A stretch of 64,000 bases of DNA, taken from contig CM073331.1 in assembly GCA_037043015.1 (NCBI GenBank), positions 3,555,501-3,619,500 of the forward strand, in the 5' to 3' direction. Each line of letters begins with the position of its first letter. The first letter of the stretch is position 1. This DNA is from Bryum argenteum. Taxonomy: Eukaryota > Streptophyta > Bryopsida > Bryales > Bryaceae. This document shows positions 4,901-41,835 of this stretch, in pieces. A program made the translations under genes and the position numbers. The notes beneath the pieces are model-generated. The model was given only the letters and a program-made list of their open reading frames with translations, did not search any database and was not told where the DNA came from.

Positions 4901-5078
4901 TCTAGTAAAAGTTAGTTACCCATGTGAAAGCCCAACAATATTATGCCCTAAAATTACACCTAGGCTAGTCTTCAAAGCACACTCTTTGCATTAGAATCAA
5001 GGAAACTATTATACTACTTTATAGCTTAGGAGCTCTTCACATTTAATTTTTCAAACTTTGAGGTAGTAACAACAATGA
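1946..5078. other. AT-rich intergenic DNA, no gene recognised
   Basis: No conserved coding motif was found. A minus ORF at 2152-2412 is hydrophobic but matches nothing I know. The segment GAGCGTTTAAGGGTTAA near 4022-4038 looks like the right end of a TTAA-flanked element whose left end was not located. Confidence 0.4.
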
Positions 5079-5082
5079 TTAA

Positions 5083-5660
5083 CCCCTAAAGGTCTAAGAG
5101 GACCAAATGGGGCTTTTGCTATTTTGGGTAGCCTAGATGAATAGGTTAAAAGTAATATTTTTGCCTAAATTTTTTAATGAGTGCTCCCTATACTGCAAAG
5201 TGTATGTCGTAAACTTTGCAAAGCCAAATTCCTATTTTTGAGTCTTCTACGACAATTCTTGGTTTGCGAGCCAAACTGGGGCAGTTTAAATTTAGTATTT
5301 TTTTGAGATTATTTTTTGGAAATATGTTCATGACCAAATCACTACTTAAGTTCCAAAGGGCCCCGAGTCACAAAGAGTACCAATTATACAAGGGCAGCTT
5401 CCAAAAGTGTCAAAAATAATCTCAACAATGCCCAAAAAAAACTTCGTAGACAAACTTTGGATGTTATGATCTCTCACATGTAAACATCCAAGGGTCAATT
5501 TTTAAATCAAATACTGAAAATTGGCTTAGGTACAAGATCTTACATTTGGAAGTTAAAAAAAGAATAAAAAAATTGTTTTGCACGTGTTGAAGTGCATAGA
5601 GGTAGAGAATTGGAGTTTTGAGGTTTCAAGCTCCCAAAAACACGCAAGGATCTTTAGGGG
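5083..5660. mobile_element. TTAA-flanked miniature element, long form (578 bp)
   Basis: Flanked by TTAA at 5079-5082 and 5661-5664. The left end is CCCCTAAAGGTCT and the right end is GATCTTTAGGGG, an imperfect terminal inverted repeat. It contains the unoccupied TTAA at 5346-5349 that serves as the empty-site counterpart of the insertion at 6301-6671. No transposase ORF. The TTAA duplication fits piggyBac-type insertion. Confidence 0.7.
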
Positions 5661-5787
5661 TTAAACATCTAAGGCATCCACTATCTTGGAATGATGACAC
5701 GTATCATTAAATATTACAAATGTCAATATTCACAAGCAATGAAATAGAAAAGACAAAGTTTCCATATTTCTGTGGTATTTTTAACCC

Positions 5788-6780
5788 CCAAAGATCTACG
5801 GCAACCAAAATGGCTTCTTTCTATTTTGGGCAGCATAGATGAAGGGGTTAGAAGTAATTTCTTTGCCCAAGATTTCTACGCGGTGCTTCTTATACTGCAA
5901 AGTGTATGTGGTAAAATTTACAAAGTCAAATTCCAATTTTAAAGCCTTCAATGCAACATATAACTAAATTGGGCTCATTTAGGAATTCCGGACTAGAGAA
6001 AACTTTGGAATTTTTATTTTTGTGGGATGCCCATTACACTGATTAAAAATCTACATCGGAGGATGTGGGTATCTTCATATCTTTGAGAGATCCCCAGTTT
6101 ACATTTTTGTGCTCAAACTGTATCTACTTCACTTGAGCATGGAGGGATTCCCGGATGTCTTCCTTCTGAACTGCTTCTTGTCCAGAAGTAGTTAAATGTG
6201 TCATTTAATCTAGAAATTTTAGTTTAAAGTCCAAAACACATGTTTAAATATAGGCTTTTAAATTTTTCTTTTGGAAATACGTTCATAACCAAGTCACTAC
6301 TTAACCCTTAAACGCCCAAGCAAGCCCGAGGGGCTTGATTCCAACAGAATCTTCTCTGTAGCTCTCACTGTAATCAACATTTCACTTATCTTTTGACTGT
6401 CAAACTGGTCACCGTCTTATGATGCATTCAAAAAGTGAAATTTTACAATTCGAATCACAATTTGTATGCATGATTTTGTGGTTTGAAAGGATTGTAATAG
6501 GTAGGTTGGGGTTGTACATAACCTCGTAGGAGGTTGCAAGCTCATCATTGATTGGTTCGTTTATGGTGCCCAAGTTCAATAAGTGCACTATTCATGATGC
6601 CCTAGTCCAAAAGATGCTGTGATTCAATTTTGGGCTGCCCGTTTTAGACCCCATGGGCGTTTAAGGGTTAAGTTCTAAAGTACCCAAGTCAAAAAGTATA
6701 CCAATTTGCCAAAAGTTTACAAGGGTTGCCTCTAAAAACTTCAGAAACAACCTTCTCAATTCCTAGTAATTTTCATATTT
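5788..6780. mobile_element. Second long TTAA-type element, interrupted by a nested insertion
   Basis: It begins at TTAA 5784-5787 followed by CCCCCAAAGATCT and follows the 5083-5660 element through several shared blocks, such as the segment around TTTTGGAAATA and CACTACTTAA. It is split by the element at 6305-6667. The right end was not found, so the boundary is approximate. A third related fragment lies at about 53750-54015. Confidence 0.5.
6305..6667. mobile_element. TTAA-flanked miniature element with 13-bp perfect inverted repeats (363 bp)
   Basis: The left end CCCTTAAACGCCC (6305-6317) is the exact reverse complement of the right end GGGCGTTTAAGGG (6655-6667). TTAA is present on both sides (6301-6304 and 6668-6671). 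The flanks rejoin as CACTAC-TTAA-GTTC, the same arrangement as the unoccupied paralogue at 5340-5353. No transposase is encoded. Termini beginning CCC next to TTAA are typical of the piggyBac superfamily. Confidence 0.85.
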
Positions 6781-9477
6781 TTTCTTTCAAAAATTTTCAT
6801 AATTCAAGATTTTGGAATTTTCCCAAATTTTTTCTCAGAGTTTACACAACCTCATAAAGGCACCAATTCACCATTCAATTTTTTCTTAAATCAGATATAT
6901 CTATTATGATGGATGTTTTTCTAAATTGTTGTATTGAGACCTTCTTTTAGAAAATAATTTGCATGAAGGCCAAGAAAGTGGAATGAATCACCAATTTTTT
7001 GTATGAGCGTACTTAACTTGATTATCTACATGAAAAGAACATATGGAAACAAATGTTTGGATTAACAATCTTCAAGTTTCCCCTTTGCACCATGGAGACA
7101 ATGTGTCACAAGCAATGCCCAAAAAATGTTTTGCACAACTATGAATGTTATGATCGCTCAAATGATACACATCTAATTAAAGTTTACATGGTACTACTGA
7201 TAGTAGGTAGGTTTGAGATTTTACAGTTGGGGCACAATTAAGCTAAGGGTGTCCAAAAAAGTTGTTCCAAGTACAATTTCAGCTCATGCAAGTGTGTCAA
7301 ACATGTCCATCTTCTAAATAAAGTCAAGTATGAGAACACCAAATGTGGTTTCAATTTACAGTACTTATAGCCTACCAAAAAAAAATAAAAAAAAATCATT
7401 TGCATTGAAGAATATTAAGGATTTTGTTAGGTATTTTAGTTCAAAAAGTAAGTTGTGTCCTAAACTCCTAATAACACAAAATCCTAAGAAACAATCATTC
7501 GATACATCAAATGATCACATTTTGATACCATTTTTGGATATGACTTACATGTACTTGTGCATTATATAAAATAGTTAATTTGACAAATAAACAATTAATA
7601 ATTTATGCACCATGATGCCTGCAAATCCCACCAATATGCAATTTACTGTGGAGGGTTCAATGATCCAAAAATAAAAAATTTGAATAATTTTTTTTCTTAG
7701 GAATGTGCATCTTGATCCCAATTACATATACGTTATTTTAAAATGATTTTGTACTCTTTGTAATTGGTAAAAATGGAAAAAATTGATGAACTTTGGATGT
7801 TTCAACCAAAAATCACCTAATTAGTCTTGACAAAAAGTGATACCCATACCTTGGCTGTGCCCGTTGGACATACAAAAAAACAGTAAAAAATTTGATTATA
7901 CCTCCATTCCAACAAGGTGGTAGAAAATTTGAGTGTCTCGTTTTGGAAGTCCAAAAATCTTTGGATTTAAGCACTAATATTTATAACCGGCAACATTTCA
8001 AGATGACTAGTATAGCTTAATTTATAAAAACCAAACAACCTACTCCGTGTATGCAAGAGGTACATGCAACAACGTGGTAAGGTAAGGAAATCTAGAAAAA
8101 TAAGAAGAATCTATATTATTAAAATTAGGATACTACCAAATGTTACTTGTCCCTTTGCCCTTCAAAACTCCATCATCACTCATTTCCCAAAAGCTTAGCA
8201 CATTCTACTAAAACCATTCCATAAGGAACTTGCTAATTTAAAGAACATGTGACAACGAACTACCTCCTATGGCAAGTGGCTTAGAAACCGCTCAAATTTC
8301 AAGCCGGCATGCTAAATGAGGAGTTCACTTGCAAAGGGAGTCAATTTAGAAAGATGTGCAAACTATGTTGGAGATTGGACCAATCGGGATCATTAATTTT
8401 GAATTTCTAGAAGGGGAACCCGTAGCTGTATCCAAAACCACTCAACCTAAAATGTACACCACAGTTACATTGAAATTCAAAGTTGGAAGCTAGAATGTAC
8501 CTCCAGCCTTGGATAGGTCTAGCGATTGGTTCCTGTGGCTTTTGAGCCACCTACTATATTAGTTGGTATTTCTATGAGCAACCTAGTACCCACACTATAT
8601 TAATAAGCTCCAAGTTTTGTTTTATTGGGACATTGTACGAGCGACCACATATATAAAGTTTCTAATTGTCATTAAAACAATAAAATCTAGTAGTGTAAGG
8701 GTTGTACATACAGACTTCCGACTTCGAGAAAAAAAACGCAACAAACAAGGCGTACTTTGGGGCCATCAGAAGACGTTGGACCTCTCTCATGTCATCTTCA
8801 AATTAAAGACGTAGTAGCAGGGTCGGTTTTTTGGGGTCGGCCCCCCGTATGATTATGAAGTATGACGCTCGCCCATAGTCAGCCGTTTTTCCGTTTTGCA
8901 TGAAAAAAGGACTCCGATTCATGTTTTCATTCGTCAAAAAAATAATTTAAAAACTTGATTTTTTTGTCGAGCAAATCGAAGGGCCATCCGCGTACTCCGC
9001 CTTATTTTCCGATGAGATCATCAAATATCGCGGATGATGATGTATGCATGGAATGTGCCATAATTCATTGCAAACAACAAATTCAACGCTCGGCATCTGA
9101 CCCTGGAACCCTGGCTTCATTTGTAAGTGTTTATTTATTTTAAAAACAAAGAATGAGACATAGGAAAGGGCGGTGTGTGTGCACTCATTTCATTTGGCCC
9201 CGGACTTGCGGTCACAAATTTTAAAAAGAATTTTTTTCTTGAAGGTCAAATAACAACAAAACACATCACCCCATTCACTTGCGCGTGCGAAGGAATGTAA
9301 TAAGGAAGTTGGGCGAAATGGAAGGGTCGTCATAAAACTATGTCATATCGCGGATCAAAAGTGTATCTAGACTGCAGCGACAAAAGAGAGGCTAATGACG
9401 CGGTGCAGAATTGATTCGTGTGAGAGAGACTGGTTTTCTTTAAAAAAATCAAGTGACTTCCACCGCCTTGGAGTAAA
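6781..9477. other. AT-rich intergenic DNA, no gene recognised
   Basis: Only short ORFs without recognisable domains. From about 8815 the base composition becomes richer in GC. Confidence 0.4.
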
Positions 9478-41224: not shown

Positions 41225-41228
41225 TTAA

Positions 41229-41835
41229 CCCTTAAACGCCCAAGCAAGCCCAAGGGGCATGATTCTAACAGAATCTTCCCTGTAGCTCTCACTGTACTCA
41301 ACTTTTTTCTTATATATTGATGTCAAACTGGTCACCTTCTTAAGATGCATTCAAAAAGTGAAATTTTACAATTCAAATCACAATATGTATGAATGCTTTT
41401 GTGCTTTCAAAGGATTGTGGTAGGTAGGTTGGGGTTGTACATAACCTTGTGGGAGGTTGCAAGTTCAGCATTGATTGGTCCATTCATGATGCCCAAGTTC
41501 AAAAAGTGCATTATTCATGATGCCCAAGTCCAAAAGATGTTGTGATCCAATTTTGGGCTGCCCGTTTTAGACCCCATGGGCGTTTAACCCCTAAAGGTTC
41601 TTGATGCAAAACTGTAAAAATGGACATTCTCTTACTTCAGGCCTAGAAACTCTCAATCTAAGAATAATTTGGAAGATCCAACCGTAGGATCTTGAAGTTA
41701 ACTTGACCTTCCACTCACTTGCCAAAATTGAACCGTTGATTCTTCTTCATTTGCGAGATTATAATGGTCAAAGTTGGCTGAATTTTGGACTCCTAAAAGC
41801 AGTTTTCGCTTTCCTGGACCTTTAAGGGTTAAGGG
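41229..41835. mobile_element. TTAA-flanked element with 13-bp ends, split by a nested element
   Basis: TTAA at 41225-41228, left end CCCTTAAACGCCC, interior like the 6305 element. At its right terminus GGGCGTTTAAGGG the internal TTAA (41584-41587) has been hit by a second element; GGG (41833-41835) and TTAA (41836-41839) resume after it. Confidence 0.85.
41588..41828. mobile_element. TTAA-flanked element nested in the 41229 element
   Basis: 241 bp, left end CCCCTAAAGGTTC, right end GGACCTTTAAGGG, TTAA at 41584-41587 and 41829-41832. The core matches the 10272/24304 family. Confidence 0.85.

Follow-up and report, generated by a model that had tools for sequence, protein, structure and literature searches.

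A TTAA-flanked element and its unoccupied counterpart

The window (the whole 64-kb stretch of DNA analysed here) carries a 363-bp element that the initial annotation had described as having perfect 13-bp inverted ends with TTAA on either side, and both features were read directly in the sequence (Table 1). Pairing between the arms takes in more than the terminal repeats, with 6299-6318 and 6654-6673 complementary at 20 of 20 positions, a count that adds the TTAA, the two bases beyond it and a further inner base to the terminal repeat. The ends start with CCC, as is typical of the piggyBac superfamily, and the element, judged from its 363-bp size alone, is non-coding. TTAA is also present within the terminal repeat itself.

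Table 1. Coordinates of the element, its insertion site and the related sequences discussed in the text.
Feature	Position	Strand	Basis
MITE, 363-bp non-autonomous piggyBac element	6305..6667	+	Inverted ends, TTAA flanks, alignments
TTAA target-site duplication, left copy	6301..6304		Read in sequence
TTAA target-site duplication, right copy	6668..6671		Read in sequence
Left terminal inverted repeat, CCCTTAAACGCCC	6305..6317	+	13/13 against right end
Right terminal inverted repeat, CCCTTAAACGCCC	6655..6667	-	13/13 against left end
Single TTAA, unoccupied paralogous site	5346..5349		Self-alignment and joined-flank alignment
Second TTAA-bounded element, holding the empty site	5083..5660	+	TTAA at 5079-5082 and 5661-5664
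Repeat related to 5079-5664, hosting the MITE	5781..6971	+	Extent approximate, split by MITE
Second copy of the MITE family	41225..41587	+	91% identical, right end worn, adjoins a further TTAA element
N-terminal domain of L033	L033:6616-6993	-	Profile, equivalents in 18 of 20 loci

An empty paralogue of the insertion site had also been proposed, and here we found a single TTAA with matching flanks, which shows the insertion: 5301-5349 aligns without gaps to 6256-6304 at 84% identity, and when 5060-5700 was compared with the joined flanks of the MITE, the alignment passed through one TTAA into GTTC..AAAG..ACCAATT. It is no plain chromosomal site, as it sits inside another TTAA-bounded element. 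The ends of this outer element, CCCCTAAAGGTCT and CCCCTAAAGATCC, agree at 11 of 13 positions and are of the CCCCTAA type. Its first 206 bases (with the TTAA) are 68% identical to the 5' end of the element at L041, one of the transposase loci described below, and its last 233 bases (again with the TTAA) are 70% identical to the 3' end, with both matches in the correct order and extending to the TTAA at either end. On these alignments the outer element is itself piggyBac-like.

Using the joined flanks as a genome query, we found 39 places that span the insertion point without an insert, at 75-78% identity, with crossing judged from alignment spans. These were 39 of 45 matches from the best 40 of 3160 candidates scored, and each covered query positions 201-598 (once 201-600) over 391-402 bp of subject. 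Two of the other six are the window locus itself, split into halves, and the remaining four are fragments, of which two likewise run over the insertion point.

Related elements in the window

The element at 41225-41587 is the sole other near full-length copy of the MITE family in the window. A search with TTAACCCTTAAACGCCCAAG allowing up to three mismatches gave eight matches against 0.01 expected, and TTAA-bounded ends that start with CC form 13 pairs (spaced 60-1500 bp, at least 10 of 13 positions agreeing) against none in 50 Markov-shuffled windows, although several of these pairs overlap, so that the elements number fewer than 13. The earlier count of at least nine related elements thus stands for a loose TTAA-bounded class and falls for the MITE family proper. 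We looked for a transposase within the 64 kb and found none. The window lies on contig C11 of the assembly (G000), which at 6.99 Mb (C1 has 44.1 Mb) is much smaller than C1-C10 by known lengths or match positions, and which is possibly a small or sex-linked chromosome.

Copy number and recent mobility

The genome searched comprises 258.8 Mb in 25 contigs, and the matches are spread over C1-C11, which points to 11 chromosomes. Collecting copies by their ends and checking each for a double TTAA, as the initial annotation had proposed, revealed a high copy number: 831 elements have both perfect 13-bp ends with 325-345 bp between them, and 751 of these (90%) have TTAA on both sides, while in the remaining 80 one or both flanks deviate from TTAA, and reversed-pattern controls gave no pairs. 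Likewise, single perfect 13-bp ends number 3694, and TTAA precedes 3298 of them (89%), with control counts of two for the bare end and none with TTAA.

We compared eight copies in full, these being the search's best matches to the window copy, and TTAA stands on both sides of all eight. Three of them (L002, L003 and L004, on contigs C8 and C3) are 100% identical over 362 bp, with the window copy at 96% identity to these three. Their 0.5-kb flanks have no mutual similarity at E 1e-5, whereas other pairs (L002/L005/L008 and L001/L006) do show flank similarity via neighbouring repeats. Because these young, identical copies lie in unrelated flanks, the MITE family was mobile recently, with the window copy somewhat older.

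Elements were also found side by side. At L002:1497-1866 and 1863 onward, and likewise at L008:1132-1500 and 1497-1866, adjoining elements have one TTAA in common, and at G000:C3:28421078-28422510 four MITE matches stand in a row, two of them separated by 4 bp. Furthermore, two facing pairs of the 13-bp ends each span exactly 597 bp (G000:C1:5243290-5243886 and C1:29682089-29682685), which suggests a second MITE size class with the same termini.

It is very improbable that this is a dead repeat family spread chiefly by segmental or tandem duplication. Such a history would agree with the 4-5% divergence of the window copy from its seven best relatives, with the short groups that some copies form and with the partial likeness of the L002, L005 and L008 flanks through neighbouring repeats; against it stand the identical L002, L003 and L004 without flank similarity, the neighbours at L002 and L008 with a common TTAA, as separate insertions predict, and the clean empty site in the window.

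Transposase genes bounded by the same termini

A search of the genome for a piggyBac transposase gene with the same termini, also put forward in the initial annotation, was successful. With the Pfam model PF13843 (DDE_Tnp_1_7) there were at least 116 matches over the cut-off (best E 7e-82); these were scored from 775 first-look candidates, all 116 lie above the Pfam cut-off, and some rows have one internal stop and one row has two. PF13843 gave no match in a control panel of 14 genomes, but the panel is also without LEAFY, so plants are probably missing from it and it cannot serve as a control for them. In the moss genome both the SAM and DNA-binding domains of LEAFY are present, and a 106-aa stretch of the DNA-binding domain differs very little from PDB 4bhk (E 3e-72; next LEAFY chain E 2.5e-50), a protein of the moss Physcomitrium. 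The genome, originally termed 'plant-type', can thus be narrowed to that of a moss.

Twenty transposase loci were taken for close analysis. TTAA-bounded ends starting with CC were recognised at eleven of them, with agreement at 12 or more of 13 positions in nine and at 10-11 in two, while among 400 Markov controls the best agreement was 10 of 13, seen once, and none reached 11. In the other nine loci no pair of boundaries reaches 10 of 13 (seven have no pair and two a weak one, at 7 and 9 of 13), and decay, nesting or too short a sequence stretch could each account for this. At three loci, L033 (5191 bp), L034 (4942 bp) and L052 (5041 bp), the element carries the exact 13-bp ends of the MITE on both sides. 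The likeness to L033 extends further inwards: counting the TTAA, 34 nt at the left end of the MITE are 91% identical to the 5' end of the L033 element, 40 nt at the right end of the MITE are 82.5% identical to the 3' end of that element, and the two matches stand in corresponding order. The ends alone are common, however, as the interior of the MITE has no match in the elements of the 20 loci (interior matches in L034, L051 and L052 fall outside the element bounds, and L048 is without bounds), and thus no exact parent was found among them.

The 886-aa frame of L033 matches both piggyBac (6x67, E 2e-29) and piggyBat (9c0f, E 7e-24), its catalytic Asp positions align with those of both, and with 9c0f the alignment runs to the end of the frame, through the cysteine-rich C-terminus. 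Using the L033 cysteine-rich domain as a query, we found matches in 11 of the 20 loci, L033 included, and none in the other nine. In the transposase cores the D..DQ motif is present in 20 of 20, DN[FWY] in 19 (not L041) and DE in 20, where up to two DE matches per core were considered and the two of L050 are not clearly catalytic; the L042 core has one stop. Downstream of the transposase frame, but inside the element, L033 also holds a tandem repeat encoding ANGSQVP units (L033:2553-2873, minus strand).

In the transposase tree the six CCCTTAA-ended loci group together (100/100), as do the four CCCCTAA-ended loci (100/99), with nine loci that have no terminal-repeat label left uncounted and a program warning of long branches. 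Terminal-repeat types therefore follow transposase clades. This bears on the alternative that another TTAA-duplicating superfamily made the MITE and that the piggyBac genes are coincidental. Kolobok and Sola3 also duplicate TTAA on insertion, so the duplication by itself is not specific to piggyBac; yet at L033, L034 and L052 piggyBac transposase genes are bounded by the same 13-bp termini, and terminal-repeat type tracks the piggyBac transposase tree, so that on the evidence of these PF13843 loci this origin is very improbable. The piggyBac assignment made in the initial annotation is upheld by the TTAA duplication, the CCC ends and the transposase elements with the same termini. The scale of the system, the several clades of terminal repeats and transposases and the extra N-terminal domain described below had not been foreseen.

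A conserved domain upstream of the transposase core

In 18 of the 20 loci (all but L035 and L039) a conserved domain of ~100 aa lies upstream of the core on the transposase strand. The profile used to detect it was built from an alignment of 11 copies, and the seven domain loci outside that alignment (L034, L040, L041, L042, L047, L050 and L051) matched it at E 1.5e-5 to 5e-45. Domain and core occupy one open frame in L045 (1290 aa) and L049 (1331 aa), and in L046 a second domain match, downstream of the first core, shares its frame with another transposase. In L033, L034, L036, L037 and L048 the domain frame stops next to GGTGAG, a sequence resembling a splice donor, which makes it likely, as far as the sequence can indicate, that the domain is a 5' exon of the transposase at these five loci; it could instead be a separate small protein. 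A stop falls within the matched domain stretch in L034 and L051.

Searches with five copies of the domain and with the N-terminal 399 aa of L033 gave no credible match in Pfam, and the single candidate identity, PUB_1 (E 0.22), was set aside. Against PDB the N-terminal 399 aa of L033 had no match at E up to 1 and the best match of the domain profile (E 0.14) was not used, while two domain copies gave no credible match in NCBIfam.

Proposed mode of movement and its significance

The element at 6305-6667 is almost certainly a piggyBac MITE of a moss, with ends that would be recognised by the transposase of ~5-kb relatives and with excision and insertion through a TTAA hairpin. We infer that a piggyBac transposase of these relatives moves it, and the individual steps, including the hairpin chemistry, may be proposed from the homologous T. 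ni piggyBac, for which end nicking, a TTAA hairpin, seamless donor repair and insertion at TTAA are described in the passages drawn from PMC7351741. By this analogy, the transposase would bind the MITE ends (CCCTTAAACGCCC plus about 35-40 bp), nick them and cut the MITE out via a hairpin on TTAA, the donor site would be repaired seamlessly, and the MITE would insert at another TTAA, which would thereby be duplicated.

More broadly, we consider the chances evenly balanced that a separate piggyBac lineage with recent activity resides in mosses, that the ~100-aa N-terminal domain of its transposase, often in an upstream frame resembling a 5' exon, is absent in animal piggyBac, and that this lineage feeds hundreds to thousands of MITEs in a single genome of 259 Mb. 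The domain perhaps serves in end binding or in contact with a host factor. PiggyBac is a standard tool for seamless integration and is mostly treated as an animal element. A land plant that combines several piggyBac clades with MITE families corresponding to them and with copies 100% identical to one another would offer seamless transposition in a natural plant setting. The extra N-terminal domain that these transposases share sets them apart from known piggyBac transposases in a way that can be tested. For annotation, a superfamily may be assignable to many TTAA-flanked moss repeats.

Comparison with known systems

The superfamily itself is known; what sets the moss elements apart is a host group about which little has been described, the large number of MITEs and the domain added to the transposase. 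The ends of T. ni piggyBac start with CCC, like those of the moss elements.

Among plants, piggyBac-like elements or MITEs are mentioned in passing in the excerpts matched from PMC8086355, PMC10004981 and PMC10794571; in angiosperms PiggyBac is named as a MITE superfamily (PMC10004981), and in the fern Ceratopteris a RepeatMasker PiggyBac class comprises 1230 pieces and 122 kb (PMC6890710). In the matched parts of PMC10004981 and PMC6890710 these labels are a name alone, whereas the moss set has ends, a target-site duplication and a transposase. Among the literature matches listed there is no account of piggyBac elements in mosses. A match to the Niphotrichum moss genome was discarded, as the word in the passage concerned (PMC10619864) is 'piggybacking' of gene expression only.

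Coral piggyBac-like MITEs, presented for two genomes in the excerpt of PMC2872659, are small elements moved in trans, as is proposed for the moss MITE, and are described in piggyBac/TTAA terms; the host is different, and our likening of the moss MITE to them is by description. With piggyBac (Trichoplusia ni) and piggyBat (Myotis lucifugus), as characterised in the sections matched from PMC7351741, the moss system has in common the TTAA target and its duplication, the DDD core and the C-terminal cysteine-rich domain. The moss elements are ~5 kb in length, in comparison with 2472 bp for piggyBac (excerpt of PMC10803768), and the L033 frame, at 886 aa, is longer than the 594-aa piggyBac chain 6x67. 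T. ni piggyBac has a disordered N-terminus of ~100 aa (passage from PMC9499001), and unlike both piggyBac and piggyBat, the transposases of this moss host carry a conserved N-terminal domain upstream of the core.
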